From: Mesorhizobium sp. ZC-5
GTDB taxonomy: Bacteria > Pseudomonadota > Alphaproteobacteria > Rhizobiales > Rhizobiaceae
Assembly (NCBI RefSeq): GCF_025753855.1
Contig: NZ_JAOWPT010000012.1
Location: 1-64,000 of the forward strand
Direction of reading: 5' to 3'
Length of the DNA stretch: 64,000 bases
Below the pieces are notes generated by a model. The model made no database searches. It was not told the origin of the DNA and was given only the letters and a program-made list of their open reading frames with translations. Positions 6,583 through 60,987 of the stretch are shown in pieces. A program made the position numbers and the translations under genes. Position 1 is the first letter of the stretch. Each line of letters begins with the position of its first letter.

Positions 6583-7803
6583 ATGAAAATTGCGGTTCTC
6601 GGCGGTGACGGTTTCGTCGGCTGGCCCACCTCGCTTCATCTCTCAGACCAGGGCCACGAAATCCACATTCTCGACAATCTGTCGCGGCGCTGGATCGATA
6701 CCGAGCTCGGCGTGCAGTCGCTGACGCCGATGGATTCCATCCAGGAACGCACCCGCATCTGGCACCAGGAAACCGGCCGCCGCATCCATTTCCACCTGAT
6801 CGACCTGGCCCGTGACTACGAAGTCCTGAAACGCTGGCTCTCCGACAACCGGCCGGATGCAATCATCCATTTCGCCGAACAGCGCGCCGCGCCCTATTCG
6901 ATGAAGAGCGACCGCCACAAGAACTACACCGTCAACAACAACGTCAACGCCACCCATAATCTGCTCAACGCGCTGGTCGAGATCGACCTCGACGCGCATC
7001 TGGTGCATCTCGGTACCATGGGCGTCTACGGCTATTCGACCGTGGGCGCGGCGATCCCGGAAGGTTACCTGCCGGTCGGCATCGAGACCATCGGCGGCGA
7101 GACGGTGAAGCAGGATATCCTGTACCCGGCCAATCCCGGCTCGATTTATCACATGACCAAGTGCCTCGATCAGCTGCTGTTCCAGTTCTATGCCAAGAAC
7201 GACGGAGTGCGGATCACCGACCTGCACCAGGGCATCGTCTGGGGCACGCATACCGAACAGACGCGGCGGCATGTGCAGTTGATCAACCGCTTCGACTACG
7301 ACGGCGACTACGGCACCGTGCTCAACCGCTTCCTCATCCAGGCGGCGATCGGCTACCCGCTGACCGTGCATGGCACGGGCGGCCAGACCCGTGCGTTCAT
7401 CCATATCCAGGATTCGGTGCGCTGCATCGAGCTTGCGCTGAAGAACGCTCCCAAGCGCGGCGACAAGGTGAAGATATTCAACCAGATGACCGAGACGCAC
7501 CGGGTGCGCGACCTGGCCGAACTGGTGGCCAACATGGCTGGCGCCCAGGTCGCCTACCTGCCCAACCCGCGCAAGGAAGCGGCCGAGAACGATCTCGTCG
7601 TCCACAACGAGCAGTTTCTGGAGCTCGGGCTCGACCCGATCACGCTGGAACAAGGTTTGCTGGCCGAAGTGGTCGATGTGGCGAAAAAATATGCCTATCG
7701 CGTCGACCGCAACCGCGTGCCGGCGATCTCCGCCTGGACCAAGGACATCGCGGCGACCATCGAACACGACCCGGAAGGCAAGCGGCTGAAGAGCGTGTCC
7801 TGA
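6583..7803 (+). CDS. sqdB: UDP-sulfoquinovose synthase
   Basis: A 406-residue extended short-chain dehydrogenase/epimerase that makes UDP-sulfoquinovose from UDP-glucose and sulfite, the first committed step of sulfoquinovosyl diacylglycerol synthesis. Visible features are the NAD-binding motif GGDGFVG at residues 7-13, the catalytic Thr145 in 'LGTMGVYG', and Tyr189/Lys193 in 'YHMTK', matching the Thr/Tyr/Lys set known for plant SQD1. Length is typical. It heads an operon with sqdD and sqdC, an order known from Rhodobacter and Sinorhizobium. An AAGGGA purine tract precedes the ATG at 6583. A single CTGTCAC half-site at 6530-6536 recalls a Pho-box half, but no second half is present. Confidence 0.95.
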   Translation: MKIAVLGGDGFVGWPTSLHLSDQGHEIHILDNLSRRWIDTELGVQSLTPMDSIQERTRIWHQETGRRIHFHLIDLARDYEVLKRWLSDNRPDAIIHFAEQRAAPYSMKSDRHKNYTVNNNVNATHNLLNALVEIDLDAHLVHLGTMGVYGYSTVGAAIPEGYLPVGIETIGGETVKQDILYPANPGSIYHMTKCLDQLLFQFYAKNDGVRITDLHQGIVWGTHTEQTRRHVQLINRFDYDGDYGTVLNRFLIQAAIGYPLTVHGTGGQTRAFIHIQDSVRCIELALKNAPKRGDKVKIFNQMTETHRVRDLAELVANMAGAQVAYLPNPRKEAAENDLVVHNEQFLELGLDPITLEQGLLAEVVDVAKKYAYRVDRNRVPAISAWTKDIAATIEHDPEGKRLKSVS

Positions 7804-7831
7804 TGGCGTTTCTCGCAGGCCTCGAACTTCA

Positions 7832-8656
7832 TTGAGCAGCAATCGTGGCCATGCCTATGTGACGCTTGTCACCAATCGCGACTATGCGATGGGGGCACTG
7901 GCGTTGGTGCGGTCGCTGCGGCTGACCGGCACCGAGGCGGATATCGTCGTGCTGCACACCGGCGGTGTCGCGAAAGCCGATCTTGCGCCCCTTACAGCAC
8001 TTGGCGCGAGATTGATCGGAGCGGAATTGCTGCCGACATCGGAAGCGTTCAACGAGCGGCATGCCCGCGCCAAACTGCACGGTGCCGCACCCTTCACCAA
8101 GGGCAACAAGCCCGCCTTCCACACGCCGCTCGACAATTTCGCCAAACTGCGGCTCTGGCAGCTGACGGAATACGAAAAATGCGTTTTCATCGACGCGGAC
8201 GCGCTGGTGCTGAAAAACATCGACCGGCTGTTCGGCTATCCCGAATTCTCGGCGGCACCGAATGTTTATGAGACACTGGGTGATTTCCATCGGCTGAATT
8301 CGGGGGTGTTCACGGCGAAACCTTGCCGGGAAACCTTCACGGCAATGCTCGAAAAGCTCGACCGGCCGGAAGCCTTCTGGAAACGCACGGACCAGAGTTT
8401 CCTGCAGGAGTTTTTCCCCGACTGGCACGGCCTGCCGGTGTTTTTCAACATGCTGCAATACGTCTGGTTCAACCTGCCGGATTTGTGGGACTGGAAGTCG
8501 ATCTCGGTGCTGCACTACCAGTATGAGAAGCCCTGGGAGCAAGGTCATCCCAAGGCGGACAAATTGCAGCTGCTTATCGATCTCTGGCATGCCTATCACA
8601 GCGGCGAGGGCATTCCCGATATCGCCGGTCTGCCAAATCCGGTGCAACGCGGATGA
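7832..8656 (+). CDS. sqdD: glycogenin-like GT8 glycosyltransferase of sulfolipid synthesis
   Basis: A 274-residue GT8-type glycosyltransferase, thought to transfer sulfoquinovose from UDP-sulfoquinovose. The metal-binding D-A-D motif is at residues 121-123 in 'FIDADALV', and the N-terminal fold 'YVTLVTNRDY' is glycogenin-like. It lies between sqdB and sqdC exactly as in characterised sqdBDC operons. The start is uncertain: no in-frame ATG exists near the homologous N-terminus, and the best candidate is TTG at 7832. The sqdB stop overlaps an ATG at 7803 that opens a 10-codon frame ending at 7835, which may couple translation into this gene. The 3' end overlaps sqdC in an ATGA. Confidence 0.92.
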   Translation: MSSNRGHAYVTLVTNRDYAMGALALVRSLRLTGTEADIVVLHTGGVAKADLAPLTALGARLIGAELLPTSEAFNERHARAKLHGAAPFTKGNKPAFHTPLDNFAKLRLWQLTEYEKCVFIDADALVLKNIDRLFGYPEFSAAPNVYETLGDFHRLNSGVFTAKPCRETFTAMLEKLDRPEAFWKRTDQSFLQEFFPDWHGLPVFFNMLQYVWFNLPDLWDWKSISVLHYQYEKPWEQGHPKADKLQLLIDLWHAYHSGEGIPDIAGLPNPVQRG

Positions 8657-9564
8657 ATGGTGCTGCGACGCTGGTCTCCGGCGGTACCGGTTTCGTCGGA
8701 CGCTTCATCGTCGAACATCTGCTGGCGACAGGGCACGCTGTAGCCGTCATGGGCCGGACCGCGCCGCCTGAAGGGGTTTTTTCTGCGCCGATAAAATTCG
8801 TCGAGGGAACGCTCGACCCGGCTCGTGACCAGTCCATGGCCTTCGAGGACATTGATTTTTTTATCCACGCCGCCTTCGATCATGTGCCCGGCAAATACCG
8901 CGGCGGCGAAGGGGACGATGCCGCGGGCTTTCGTTTGAGGAACAGGGAGGGGTCGGCGGCGCTGTTCAAGGCGGCAAGGGCGATGGGCGTCAAGCGCACC
9001 GTGTTTCTTTCGAGCCGCGCAGTCTACGGCACCCAGCCGGCGGGCGCCGTGCTTACCGAAGAGACCATGCCGCATCCCGATACGCTTTACGGGGAAATGA
9101 AACTCGCGGCGGAACGCGATCTGCGAGACATGAGCGGCGATGGTTTCTGCGGCACGAGCCTGCGGGTTACCGGTGTCTACGGACCTGCCGGTACCGGTCT
9201 GGAGCACAAATGGACGGGTCTCTTTCGCGACTACCTTGCCGGCCGATCGGTGGAGCCTCACGCGGGAACGGAAGTCCATGGCGATGATGTCGCGAAAGCA
9301 GTGAAGCTGGTGCTCGAGGCGCCCGAGAAGGCTGTCTCCGGCCAGATATTCAACATATCGGACCTGCTGATCGATCGCCGCGACCTGCTGTCGGTCGCCA
9401 GTACCGTCGCGCGATGCAGACACCCGCTGCCTTCGCAAGCCGATCGCGCGGCGACGAATGTGATGGCGACGGAGAAGATCAGGGCACTTGGCTGGCGGCC
9501 CGGCGGGGTCGTTGCGCTCGAACAGTTCGTGCGGTCGCAAGTGGCTGGCGGGACGCCCCGTTGA
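8653..9564 (+). CDS. sqdC: NAD-dependent epimerase/dehydratase of sulfolipid synthesis
   Basis: A 303-residue atypical/extended SDR protein. The nucleotide-binding motif GGTGFVG lies at residues 10-16 and the active-site pair in 'YGEMK' (Y-x3-K). In Rhodobacter, loss of sqdC lets sulfoquinovosyl-dihydroxyacetone build up, so a reductase or channeling role is assumed for this family; the exact reaction is not settled. The gene starts inside the sqdD stop codon (ATGA overlap), so translation is coupled. It is the last gene of sqdBDC, and the next gene is convergent. Confidence 0.88.
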   Translation: MNGAATLVSGGTGFVGRFIVEHLLATGHAVAVMGRTAPPEGVFSAPIKFVEGTLDPARDQSMAFEDIDFFIHAAFDHVPGKYRGGEGDDAAGFRLRNREGSAALFKAARAMGVKRTVFLSSRAVYGTQPAGAVLTEETMPHPDTLYGEMKLAAERDLRDMSGDGFCGTSLRVTGVYGPAGTGLEHKWTGLFRDYLAGRSVEPHAGTEVHGDDVAKAVKLVLEAPEKAVSGQIFNISDLLIDRRDLLSVASTVARCRHPLPSQADRAATNVMATEKIRALGWRPGGVVALEQFVRSQVAGGTPR

Positions 9565-53418: not shown

Positions 53419-54411
53419 TCAGGACGTGTCGCGGCGCTCCTCCAGGACGTCGAAGGCAAGGCCGTGCAGGTCTTTCAGGATTTCGTGGATCTCGTGCCGG
53501 GATTTTTTCCGGCCCCGCCTCGGGTGCTGGCCGGGTGGGCGGCCGGGGCGCAGCGGCCATATGCGGTGCGGCTTGCTGCGGCGCGGTTCTCCGGTTGGCG
53601 CGGCGGCATCGCCGTTTCTTTCCTGCGCGATGATCGCATCGCGGCGCGCGCGCCAGCGGGCGAAGCGTTTTGCCTGGCGCGGCAGGTCGTCGAGGGCCGA
53701 GGCAAGCGTGGCGAGCCGGCGGCCAAGCCGCGTGGCGTCGACCGGGTCGTCGGGCGATGGCAGACGGCGGGGCACGATGGGAGACAGTGTGGTGTAGCCG
53801 GGCACCGAGATGCGCGGCACGCTGTTGGGGATGGGACGGCGGGGGCGACTTTCCCATCGCGGAAGCCGGTCGAACAGCGGCAGCGTGAGCGTGGGGGTAG
53901 ATGCGCTCTTACCCCCACCCCTTACCCCTCCCCACAAGGGGGAGGGGGATTTTGGCGCGTTTGCGCTTGACGCGTTCGCTGCTGGACCTTGTGCGGCGAG
54001 GACGCCTCCCTCCCCCTTGAGGGTAGGGGTAAGGGGTGGGGGTCCGGGCGGCATCAGGATGCCGGTTCCGATGCCGTTGCGCAGGATCGTCGGCGCAGGC
54101 TTCGCCTTGCGCCGGCGCGACGGCGATGGCGGCGCCACCACGATCCCGCGCGCCGCCACGATGATGAGCCGCCGCACGGCAGACTCGGCCGGCCGCAGCA
54201 GGCGGAGCACGGTGGTGTGGAGATGGCGCGGCAGGGTAAATGCAAGGGACAGTTTACTTTTTTCCGCCAGCGCCGAACCGTGAGGCAGCGCGCTTTCCTG
54301 CGGAAAGAAAGTAAACTGTCCCCGGGAGCCCAGCCCGGCCATGGCGACGAGCATCGCCAGGATGCGCTTCAGCGCCTCCGTGTTCCGCTCGATCGCCAGG
54401 TTCCAGTCCAT
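53419..54411 (-). CDS. hypothetical protein interrupted in frame by two palindromic repeats
   Basis: A 330-residue protein of unknown function. The N-terminus (MDWNLAIERNTEALKRILA) and the parts 'TTVLRLLRPAESAVRRLIIV' and the C-terminal 170 residues read as one normal rhizobial family. Two inserts break it: residues roughly 30-58, translated from the palindrome at 54246-54322, and residues roughly 124-168 (containing 'PPLTPTLKGEGG' and 'PSPLWGGVRGGG'), translated from the repeat at 53911-54043. The frame stays open through both. The start is ATG 54411, with GGAAGGAA upstream; a longer upstream frame runs into repeat DNA. Confidence 0.75.
   Translation of the reverse strand: MDWNLAIERNTEALKRILAMLVAMAGLGSRGQFTFFPQESALPHGSALAEKSKLSLAFTLPRHLHTTVLRLLRPAESAVRRLIIVAARGIVVAPPSPSRRRKAKPAPTILRNGIGTGILMPPGPPPLTPTLKGEGGVLAAQGPAANASSANAPKSPSPLWGGVRGGGKSASTPTLTLPLFDRLPRWESRPRRPIPNSVPRISVPGYTTLSPIVPRRLPSPDDPVDATRLGRRLATLASALDDLPRQAKRFARWRARRDAIIAQERNGDAAAPTGEPRRSKPHRIWPLRPGRPPGQHPRRGRKKSRHEIHEILKDLHGLAFDVLEERRDTS
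53911..54043. repeat. palindromic repeat inserted in a coding frame
   Basis: Perfect 19-bp terminal arms (53911-53929 ACCCCCACCCCTTACCCCT against 54025-54043) with inner complementary words 'ctccccacaagggggaggg' and 'ctccctcccccttgaggg'. It is a 133-bp unit within the hypothetical gene on the minus strand. Confidence 0.85.
54246..54322. repeat. 77-bp palindromic (REP-like) element inside a gene
   Basis: Perfect 15-bp arms GGGACAGTTTACTTT at 54246-54260 and 54308-54322, extended by TTTCCGC/GCGGAAA with a one-base bulge, so a 22-bp stem. It differs from the other repeats in sequence, so it is a second family. Confidence 0.85.
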
Positions 54412-54517
54412 TGCCGTTCCTTCCAAGCTCATGGAAAGGATTATGCGGGGCGGCTGGAGGGGTGGGGATAAAAGGGAGAGAAAATTCCTGACAGATGATG
54501 ACAAAGATGACGGCTCT

Positions 54518-54708
54518 CCCTTCTCCCCTTGTGGGAAGAAGGTGCCTGAACGCAGCGAAGGCGGATGAGGGGTGCTGCGAGGAATGCGATGTTTCAAGAT
54601 CGTTGCCTGGCGTTGCCGTCGTGCCGTTTCTGAAGCGTCTCGCTCCGTCCAGCACCCCTCATCCGACCTCGCTGCGCTCGGCCACCTTCTCCCACAAGGG
54701 GAGAAGGG
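54518..54708. repeat. palindromic repeat in the intergenic gap
   Basis: Arms CCCTTCTCCCCTTGTGGGA (54518-54536) and its complement (54690-54708), with inner pairs 'ggatgaggggtgctg' and 'cagcacccctcatcc'. The 368-bp gap 54412-54779 otherwise holds no gene. Confidence 0.85.
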
Positions 54709-54779
54709 GAGGCGCAACAAGCTCGCCCCTCGACAAGCTCTGGGGCGGGGATATGGTGGCTGCAACCGGAGGAGGTGTC

Positions 54780-55256
54780 ATGCGGCGTTGGGCAATCATT
54801 CTCGTTGCGGCCGGCCTTGCCTGGCCCGCGCTGGCCGATGGCTGGGGCGTCTACGGCAATGCGCGCTTTTCCTATCTCATGCCGCTGCCGCCCGGCTTTT
54901 CGGCGGTCGCCGAGGCCGACAACAGCGACGGCGGCACCAGCCGCTCCGCCGACGGCACGGCGACGCTTGCCGTGTGGGGCACCAACCTGCTCGACACGCC
55001 GTTCGAGACCGAAGTGGCCGGGCGCATGGCGTCTGACGAGGCGGACGGCTGGAAAATCAGCTACCGGCAGGGCAACGGCGCCGGCGCCAGCTGGTCGGGC
55101 ACGCGAAACGGCCGCGTGCTCTACATGCGCGCCGTGCCGCTCTGCGCCGACGAGGCGGCGTTCTTCCGGCTGGAATATGGGGAGGCGGAGATGAAGGCTT
55201 ATGACGCGGTGGTGGCGCGGATGGTCAAGGGGTTTGGGGGCGAGGGGTGTGAGTGA
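54780..55256 (+). CDS. small exported protein
   Basis: A 158-residue protein with a signal peptide (MRRWAIILVAAGLAWPALA) and a mature domain with 'NARFSYLMPLPPGFSAVAEA' and 'VLYMRAVPLCADEAAFFRLE'. The pattern suggests a small periplasmic beta-rich domain of unknown role. GGAGGTGTC precedes ATG 54780. It lies between a repeat element and the low-GC cassette. Confidence 0.82.
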   Translation: MRRWAIILVAAGLAWPALADGWGVYGNARFSYLMPLPPGFSAVAEADNSDGGTSRSADGTATLAVWGTNLLDTPFETEVAGRMASDEADGWKISYRQGNGAGASWSGTRNGRVLYMRAVPLCADEAAFFRLEYGEAEMKAYDAVVARMVKGFGGEGCE

Positions 55257-55473
55257 CTCTGAGTTCTAGAAATCGCAAGAGAGGGATCTTCGAGGGAATG
55301 CGCCATTATTTATTACACTATAACCGTCGCCTCATTCAAAGCAAAGTAAGCGCCTTCACGGTAGTTTCTTTCTTTCTGCGATTCAGACACTGCATACAAA
55401 TATAAAATCGCTTGACGAATCTTGCGATCCACCCAATGTTCTCTTATTGTTCGTTGAGGCAAGGGGGTGGAAA

Positions 55474-56082
55474 ATGGCGAAGCAACAGTTGTCAAAAGGC
55501 GGCGCTAAGGTTCGTTTCATAATGCTAGAGGCTGATATTCCGGACGGCGATCTTAGCCAAATAACAGCTGCTATTCAGAATGCCTTGAAGCCGACTACCA
55601 TAGTCCAGCAGCGACTTAACGGTTCCTCACCAGCGACTGTTATGTTGGCGGGTGGTAATGGCCAGATGTCAGAGAACGCTGAGGTCATAGACCTAGAAGA
55701 GCAGGAAGAAGTGCCATCTCCGCCAAAAACAAGCCGTCCGGCACGCCCTCGTAAACCAACAACACCCGAGGTTCTTGATCTAGATTTCTCATCAGATCTT
55801 TCACTGGTGAATTTTGCCGAACAGCATCCTGCCGAAACTGAGCCTGAGAAAAATCTTGTCATCGCTGCTTGGTTTAAGGAGCATCGAGATACGCCTGCCG
55901 TTACAACTGCTCATATCTATACGGGATATCGAGTGATCGGTTGGTCTGTTGGATTTGAAGACTTTGGATGGCCGCTCCGTTATCTGAAGAAAGAAAAACT
56001 GATGTCAAGCTCTAGCCGAGGGTCTTATGAAATCAATCATCTCGGGTTAGACAAGGTCCAGAAACTTAGGTCCGGCGGTTGA
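55474..56082 (+). CDS. winged-helix protein, first gene of low-GC cassette
   Basis: A 202-residue protein of no family I recognise. Residues 1-60 form a small alpha/beta domain ('KVRFIMLEADIPDGDLSQI'). An acidic/Pro-rich linker (65-120) follows. The C-terminal part (about 124-200) resembles a winged helix: 'AAWFKEHRDTPAVTTAHIYT', then 'LRYLKKEKLMSSSSRGSYEI'. That C-terminal domain resembles the N-terminal domain of the next gene. AAGGGGGTGG precedes ATG 55474. Base composition is clearly more AT-rich than the neighbours and codons ending in A/T are common, indicating recent transfer. It ends overlapping the next gene. Confidence 0.75.
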   Translation: MAKQQLSKGGAKVRFIMLEADIPDGDLSQITAAIQNALKPTTIVQQRLNGSSPATVMLAGGNGQMSENAEVIDLEEQEEVPSPPKTSRPARPRKPTTPEVLDLDFSSDLSLVNFAEQHPAETEPEKNLVIAAWFKEHRDTPAVTTAHIYTGYRVIGWSVGFEDFGWPLRYLKKEKLMSSSSRGSYEINHLGLDKVQKLRSGG

Positions 56083-56831
56083 GCGCAATACAAGATTTTT
56101 CTTCGTCCACGAATGGATTTTATCGTAAGTCAGCAGTCGATCAACTGTTGATACTCTCATGGTTTGTAGAAACCCATGAAGGGCGCCCCTTTTTTGACGG
56201 TTCCTACATGCGCAAGTGTTTCCGGGATGTTGGCCTCGACCCGCCTGACATGAGCGTTTATCTTCCTCGTTTGGTCGCGAAGAAGCCACCCCAGCTTGTA
56301 CGGGAGAAAGGTGGGTATCGGTTAGCAGGTGGCCTACGCCGTGATCTCGATAGGCGGTTTGGGGTTGATCCCGTCGTGGCAGTTGTTACGCAAACGCTGT
56401 CCGAGTTGCCACAAAAAGTGCCGGACCTCGCGGAGCGGGCGTTTCTCACAGAGGCGCTGAATTGCTATCGGGTGAGGGCGTATCGAGCGGCAATAGTGAT
56501 GACTTGGAACCTAGCCTACGACCACCTAGTTCGGTGGCTCTTTAAAGATGCATCGCGCATTGTTGCCCTGAACGCGGCAATAGGAACGAAATTTCCAAAG
56601 AAAAGCATTGTTATAAATAACATTGAGGACTTAGATGATTTGAAGGAATATGAACTTATCGAATCTTGTCGAGTTGCGCGTCTTTTAGACAAGAACACTG
56701 TCCAGATTCTAAAAGATAAGCTATCCCGGAGGAATATTGCGGCACATCCTTCGCGTGTGATAATAAATCAGCATCAAGCCGATGATACGATTAGTGATTT
56801 GGTAAATAATGTAATTCTTTTTCTTACTTAA
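56079..56831 (+). CDS. winged-helix/HEPN-domain protein, second gene of low-GC cassette
   Basis: A 250-residue protein. Residues about 18-92 look like a winged helix related to that of the upstream gene ('LLILSWFVETHEGRPFF', 'YLPRLVAKKPPQLVREKGGY'). Residues about 115-250 are all helical with 'RAYRAAIVMTWNLAYDHLV' and the HEPN signature Arg218-x4-His223 in 'SRRNIAAH', the active-site pattern of HEPN RNases in toxins and defence systems. Activity is not shown. The start is a TTG overlapping the upstream stop (TTGA), so translation is coupled. It is AT-rich like its partner. Confidence 0.75.
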   Translation: MSAIQDFSSSTNGFYRKSAVDQLLILSWFVETHEGRPFFDGSYMRKCFRDVGLDPPDMSVYLPRLVAKKPPQLVREKGGYRLAGGLRRDLDRRFGVDPVVAVVTQTLSELPQKVPDLAERAFLTEALNCYRVRAYRAAIVMTWNLAYDHLVRWLFKDASRIVALNAAIGTKFPKKSIVINNIEDLDDLKEYELIESCRVARLLDKNTVQILKDKLSRRNIAAHPSRVIINQHQADDTISDLVNNVILFLT

Positions 56832-56961
56832 GGCACTGTTCGCGGCAGCAGCTAAGCGCCTTGCAAGAATATCGCTTTAGCTGCCCGACCTCCAATGCCC
56901 GGTCTTCAGCGCCGCGGCGGCTTCGGCGACGGCGGCGGCGCCCTAGAGCGTGGTGCAGAGG

Positions 56962-57492
56962 CTGGCGCTGCCCCTCACTGCCGGAATCTCTCTCCGTAAA
57001 CAGGGAGAGAGAAGCAGCTTCGGTGCCTCGCGCTTTCGTCGCGCCCTACCCGGCGCGTTTCTCCCTTCTCTCCGTTTAAAGGGAATAGGTGGCCCCGAAG
57101 GGTCGGATAAGGGGCGGAGCGAACTATTCAGGTCTTGGCGCTGCCCCTCACCTGCCTGCCGGCATCCTCTCCCCGTGAACGGGGAGAGGAAAGCAGCGTA
57201 GGCGCCGCGCGCTGCCGCAGCGACCCACGCGACGGCGCTTCAGGCGGCAAGCTCGGCGGGACAGCGCCCCCCTCTGGCCTGCCGGCCATCTCCCCACAGG
57301 TGGGGAGATGGCTAATCGCGATGCTTGCGCCAGCGGAACCACCCCCACCCGGCGCGTCTTTCCTTTCTCCCCGTGAACGGGGAGAGGGGCGCAGCTTCGG
57401 CGGCATCGCTTTTCTGCTCGATGGCGGCATCTGAGAAGACCCCCACCCGGCGGGCTTTGCCCGCCGACCTCCCCTCAAGGGGGAGGTGAAAA
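56962..57492. repeat. mosaic of palindromic repeats before carB
   Basis: The 667-bp gap between the cassette and carB holds no gene. It holds several repeat units: two copies of 'ggcgctgcccctcac' leading to 'tctctccgtaaacagggaga' or 'ctccccgtgaacggggagag' hairpins, 'ctccccacaggtggggag' near 57290, another 'ctccccgtgaacggggag' near 57370, and 'acctcccctcaagggggaggt' at 57470-57490. These look like several insertions or nested copies of repeat families. Confidence 0.75.
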
Positions 57493-57498
57493 AGGCGC

Positions 57499-60987
<3,489 letters not shown>

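Follow-up and report, generated by a model that had tools for sequence, protein, structure and literature searches.

A low-GC winged-helix/HEPN gene pair with a putative LexA box beside carB in Mesorhizobium sp. ZC-5

The gene pair and its encoded proteins

The window analysed here, a stretch of 64,000 nucleotides from Mesorhizobium sp. ZC-5 (contig NZ_JAOWPT010000012.1, positions 1 to 64,000 of the forward strand), contains two overlapping genes, A and B, which encode a winged-helix protein and a predicted ribonuclease of the HEPN superfamily. Gene A (55474-56082, plus strand) starts with ATG and encodes 202 residues, arranged as a small N-terminal module, a disordered linker and a C-terminal winged helix; its product is probably a regulator of B. 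Gene B (56079-56831, plus strand) starts with TTG and encodes 250 residues, in which a winged helix is followed by the HEPN domain of the predicted ribonuclease effector. The stop codon of A (TGA) lies within the start region of B (TTG), in a TTGA overlap at 56079-56082 on the same strand. The GC content of the pair is 0.47-0.53, against mostly 0.60-0.71 in the surroundings, and its neighbours are, on the left, a small open reading frame (ORF) ending at 55256, whose start is signal-like as judged by eye, and, on the right, carB (57499-60987, minus strand), which converges on the pair. The original prediction, made from the letters of the sequence, had described an overlapping low-GC two-gene cassette set between a gene for an exported protein and carB, and both ORFs and the overlap are indeed present.

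The second half of B (residues 113-250; 56415-56828, plus strand) is predicted to adopt the all-helical fold of the HEPN superfamily, as indicated by a structure model and by structural and profile matches. The superfamily is described as carrying an Rx4-6H motif with a polar residue such as N following R (PMC3710099, in the part of the text available), and B contains it as R218-N219-x3-H223, within the predicted catalytic motif R218-N219-x3-H223-P224 (56730-56750, plus strand). R218, N219, H223 and P224 are invariant in 81/81 aligned B sequences, the window's included, and this is no selection effect, because the scan by which most B sequences were collected keyed on another stretch, at residues ~135-143; the invariance of R136, I139, M141 and W143 in the same alignment is a selection effect of that scan. 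A further HEPN element, Ex3[KR], is attributed to many, not all, families in the same portion of that source, and as written it is absent from the B alignment, in which E125 is invariant, yet C129 is found in 80/81 sequences. The B alignments omit the duplicate loci L001-L008, the HEPN-only loci L009, L010 and L089, and L062, in which B is split; the structure alignment of B additionally lacks L011, and the tree (78 rows) additionally lacks L011, L054 and L058. The HEPN RNase signature R218-x4-H223 previously claimed for B is thus present, conserved and placed in a predicted HEPN fold, and B is probably a HEPN-type ribonuclease. No Pfam or NCBIfam family reaches its own cut-off for either protein.

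The claim that A and B share a winged helix, C-terminal in the former (residues 111-199; 55804-56070, plus strand) and N-terminal in the latter (residues 17-96; 56127-56366, plus strand), stood up to profile-profile comparison, in which the two domains are homologous (hhalign probability 97.0, E 1.2e-10, 84 columns), and two structure models agree. The N-terminal module of A (~residues 12-44; 55507-55605, plus strand) reads as strand-strand-helix from the alignment, and in the structure model only the helix at residues 27-38 is visible within it, with 10-residue means of ~56-82. The structure and profile alignments of A omit broken, partial or odd A genes. A Pfam scan of A gave nothing above cut-off, and profile searches of the PDB with A gave no match at E <=0.4 with a profile of 7 sequences and none at E <=1 with one of 64.

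Pairing, distribution and the carB site

The scan of genome contigs, from which 80 of 91 loci were kept, found B in Pseudomonadota, Cyanobacteriota, Myxococcota, Bacteroidota, Chloroflexota, Acidobacteriota, Armatimonadota and other phyla. A, represented at least by its winged helix, lies directly upstream of B in 76 of the 80 loci, a count for which the A profile was built largely from those same upstream genes; with the seven-sequence A profile of the first detection, A was found in 86/92 loci, duplicates counted. An intact A adjoins B in 64 of the 80 loci; A is in pieces in 6 (including L062, where A is whole and B split), partial in 6 and missing from 4, namely L054, L058, L089 (the HEPN-only match) and L032, which lies at the edge of its contig. 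Full-length B occurs in 7 of the 385 genomes of a class sample, with A adjoining in 7/7, and B is matched in 9 of the 397 genomes of an order sample, with A present in 9/9; both samples include the window's own genome, and G499, G412, G648, G1052, G1040 and G1051 repeat loci of the 80-locus scan. The original prediction had named three findings that would count against it, namely homologues that never occur together, the lack of a HEPN fold and a motif that is not conserved, and none of them was obtained.

Pairwise distances of A and of B are correlated at 0.94 over the 64 loci with intact A, a value reached in 0/2000 permutations, and at 0.81 among 18 loci within the window's clade. This shows co-inheritance of the two genes and says nothing of their function. 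Two loci are recorded here as side observations. In L012 (Sinorhizobium glycinis, 7349-8750) the pair, with a frameshifted A, adjoins a guaA-like gene (read by eye, from L002). By eye, the last part of a tyrosine recombinase-like frame in L054 (~7150-7900) seems to continue into a remnant resembling the N-terminal helix of A, and this remnant adjoins the B gene that has no A.

Within the same family, the window's B as query found a match in 10/298 genomes, 7 of them full or near full length, its own included, and an eighth of this kind (G090, L008) was found by profile. In tblastn searches with this B, which reach mainly close relatives, one of 72,556 plasmids was matched (Ochrobactrum pLM19O1, with A beside B) and none of 50,697 phage records; A as query found the same single plasmid and no other. 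A scan of viral contigs gave one B locus, whose first 8 kb had no match to any phage record, and a library of viral folds gave no match below E 0.001. A phage or plasmid origin was rejected on these counts. The window's B groups with those of S. glycinis, a Mesorhizobium and a Novosphingobium (65-67% identity), and the B of Aliihoeflea (L065), which also lies beside carB and next to an A in pieces, is just 33% identical to it. This pattern of relationships is consistent with horizontal movement of the pair.

In 8 relatives the carB site lacks both A and B within ~15-16 kb (0/8 at E 1e-4). The conserved left anchor and carB are ~1.7-8.2 kb apart in the relatives that were fetched and 7.8 kb apart in the window. 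Between the pair and carB lies an imperfect copy of the carB 3' end (56899-56955; compare 57499-57600), 57 nt long and 74% identical, with an E value of 3e-4 in a small local database, which is possibly an old insertion scar. A survey of such copies, in which 30 loci were kept from 57 genomes with a match, gave a comparable one (55 nt, 82%) in L113, the sole case among the 29 other relatives examined. Because copies of the carB end occur in the window and in L113, and a separate A/B pair stands at this site in Aliihoeflea, carB is suggested, without proof, as an insertion hotspot. A single integrase query, an insensitive probe, matched 2/81 loci vs 0/14 controls, and Pfam identified three phage-type integrases among 150 neighbouring ORFs.

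A putative LexA box upstream of gene A

Upstream of A, at 55438-55452 on the plus strand, lies the sequence GTTCTCTTATTGTTC, an exact GTTC-N7-GTTC and a putative LexA (SOS) box, which occupies the positions 22-36 nt upstream of the gene and ends 21 nt before its ATG. GTTC-N7-GTTC is reported as the alphaproteobacterial LexA motif (PMC3323433, in the text available). As controls, lexA of the same genome carries GAACACAACTGGAAC (GAAC-N7-GAAC) ~53-67 nt before its likely ATG, and recA carries a box with one mismatch at -71. The pair resembles these members of the LexA regulon in having a box of this type close upstream of the start, and differs from them in being an accessory HEPN module instead of a repair gene, with a box predicted from sequence. 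DNA damage may therefore be one trigger of the pair, a point that goes beyond the original prediction.

The motif was first spotted by eye in the upstream stretches, so that the enrichment test is post hoc. In the window's clade (21 loci, window included, searched within 160 bp) 7 loci have an exact box and 16 have one with <=1 mismatch, and dinucleotide-preserving shuffles gave means of 0.14 and 2.79 (maximum 7 at <=1 mismatch), with 0/300 shuffles reaching the observed counts. These shuffle counts overstate the significance of the boxes, because the related loci are not independent lineages; differing flanks and box positions argue against shared ancestry of the upstream DNA as the simple cause. 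Exact boxes start at -46 (L012), -43 (L013), -28 (L014) and -66 (L029) relative to A, and L022 and L024 have exact boxes on the other strand near -150. No box at <=1 mismatch was found in L015-L018 and L033, nor in L011 and L031, which both lie outside the 21-locus count. The frequency is at chance level or below in clade II (0/20 loci) and clade III (1/23). Of eight loci that turned up afterwards, six lack a box, L180 carries one at -96 with a single mismatch, and L160, with an A that looks clade II-like to the eye, carries an exact one at -41. Scans for sigma-70 promoters and terminators gave results at chance level only. As a side observation, an element CTTGCAAGCAA(G) lies ~50-70 nt before A in the clade II loci L046, L051-L053, L055, L056 and L064, and is perhaps another operator.

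Known systems, rival explanations and proposed role

In the MNT-HEPN toxin-antitoxin modules (HepT/MntA) the partner of the HEPN protein is a nucleotidyltransferase, and structure entry titles agree; A, unlike that partner, has no nucleotidyltransferase match, and the fold predicted for it with confidence is that of a winged helix, its N-terminal part being barely covered. Judged from profile matches, B is closest, among characterised proteins, to PD-T7-3 and Dandelion in their HEPN parts; both are otherwise built differently. PD-T7-3 (PADLOC PDLC04108), a single-gene anti-phage protein, has a HEPN part that falls into one sequence family with that of B (E 8e-5 for the window's B; 2e-12 and 1e-5 for the HEPN-only relatives L010 and L009), but its profile of 432 positions is matched near its N-terminus, whereas B has 250 residues, begins with a winged helix and is preceded by a partner gene. 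Dandelion (PDB 9wx2, 9wxf) matches the HEPN core of B by profile through its R-x4-H-P end (E 4.8e-6), in a chain of 460 residues. B thus belongs with these proteins by its HEPN family and departs from their common plan, in which one long chain has HEPN towards its N-terminus and an extended C-terminal part. The literature search listed no paper on Dandelion among its matches, and at full-text level no description of the A/B pair in titles or abstract openings; in the available text of the DefensePredictor paper (PMC13092281), which reports 31 further validated systems, four of them HEPN, the pair is not described. The earlier statement that the pair matches no named system therefore holds for all the families and architectures compared. 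The pair may nevertheless act like toxin-antitoxin or abortive-infection HEPN systems.

We give about even weight to the reading in which A and B form an accessory, horizontally moving, LexA-controlled two-gene module, B being a HEPN ribonuclease and A its dedicated winged-helix partner and regulator. Under this reading LexA would repress both genes through the box at 55438-55452 and would be removed by DNA damage, or by a phage infection that causes damage. A and B would then be produced together, because the start of B overlaps the stop of A, and might bind each other, possibly by way of their homologous winged helices; the N-terminal module and disordered linker of A would restrain or trigger B. 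The active HEPN dimer would cleave cellular RNA through R218/H223, leading to growth arrest or aborted infection, and the pair may in this way be an emergency device, as yet unnamed, for growth arrest or against viruses. The more specific picture of a LexA-gated, damage-triggered RNA-cutting device, in which a HEPN/winged-helix family that crosses phyla has one lineage under direct SOS control, is more tentative and falls somewhat short of probable. If true, a portable unit of just two genes would unite the SOS response with arrest or defence by a HEPN ribonuclease, responses that are usually treated separately. The A and B profiles define a searchable family, for which PADLOC 2.0 gave a weak partial match.

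A classical type II toxin-antitoxin, in which A continuously silences bound B until its degradation frees the toxin, is a rather unlikely rival. The two genes are small, overlapping or adjacent, co-inherited and regularly paired with the regulator first, such pairs commonly have HEPN toxins (PMC3710099, as far as its text was available), and TTG starts, as assigned by script, are apparently frequent among B genes. Against it, A is split by frame changes beside an open B with intact motif in at least 6 of the 80 loci (L012, L022, L030, L047, L065 and, by eye, L083), and likewise stops lie within A beside an open B in G635 of the class sample, which has the reverse, stops within B, in G365. A broken A beside an open B speaks against a B that is lethal without A and weakens a strict antitoxin role for A, which the original prediction had cast as sensor or antitoxin, with draft-genome errors or recent decay as possible causes in some cases. 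Perfect 7-nt palindromes upstream of A, moreover, were found in just two of 21 loci (one each in L019 and L042) and not in the window.

Slightly less weight goes to a dedicated anti-phage system, also unlikely, in which A senses a phage product and activates B, with SOS control secondary or local to some lineages. Kinship favours it, as PD-T7-3 protects against phage (PMC9519451, in the part available) and BxaP, which resembles PD-T7-3 structurally, protects against T4 (PMC10799925, likewise in part), as do the patchy distribution of full-length B in the class sample and the lack of a LexA box at most loci beyond clade I. The phage, plasmid and viral-contig counts given above, within the reach of those searches, weigh against it, and so does the isolation of the window's pair among chromosomal genes. 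Defence genes among nearest neighbours are not clearly above control either. At a threshold of 1e-15, PADLOC models matched numbered 107 in the 150 nearest ORFs and 4 in the controls (134 of 179 ORFs, from 14 same-family stretches); this count was withdrawn as a sign of enrichment, since a single neighbour, a type I methylase-specificity fusion (L085:4672-7254), by itself matches 91 models at 1e-10. When ten larger neighbours were scanned singly, the only clear defence genes were this fusion and an HmaC-like protein in L033, two single loci that speak for defence. Among the matches listed (25 models) were a type IIG enzyme (2 members), mad3 (2, the same as in the control) and, with 1 member each, Orf5, PDC-S11, HEC-06, a DRT and a CARF-WYL protein. 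Association of the pair with defence is unproven, and the missing island context is compatible with defence, because PD-T7-3 is anti-phage and is placed outside defence islands in the available text of PMC10799925. Far less probable than either is a pair of transcription regulators, in which each winged helix is a DNA-binding domain and HEPN is a non-catalytic or ligand-binding unit: the winged helices match the PadR/MarR/MntR families and the structural matches include the HEPN-like MtlR, but the identity of R218, N219 and H223 in every aligned sequence points to catalysis, and the net charges of the winged-helix parts are small (+1 in A, +5 in B).

Genes resembling A also occur in other settings. 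Nine genomes of the class sample have an A-like match and lack this B. In G380 and G678 two genes come after the A-like gene, one containing a winged-helix-like stretch, the other helical and containing R-x6-H (HEPN readings made by eye, as in the next genome), G380 having a weak MarR-like match in this set; G337 (L171) has a comparable helical gene on the downstream side of its A-like match. A possible second A/HEPN class of A-like, winged-helix-like and helical R...H genes, the R...H being read by eye, is seen in L168 (1321-3291), L170 (1306-3267) and L171 (2243-3052), and a second A-like gene (A') lies directly upstream of A in G444 and in L050, L173, L183, L184 and L185, forming A'-A-B triplets. 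A may, on the evidence of these arrangements, be a common adaptor of a larger, undescribed winged-helix/HEPN class.

As for the flanks, the pair had also been described as bounded by repeat arrays, which is correct for the repeats and not for the arrays: the repeats are short, palindromic and scattered, no clear tandem or CRISPR-like arrays were seen, and flanking CRISPR or tandem arrays were rejected. The repeats are REP-like (TCTCCCCGTGAACGGGGAGA type and others) and lie on both sides, at 56989-57487 and 53904-54711. Elsewhere in the window, at 1256-1684, there is a 150-nt tandem repeat of 2.8 copies, whose translation resembles, by eye, Kazal-type inhibitor repeats.
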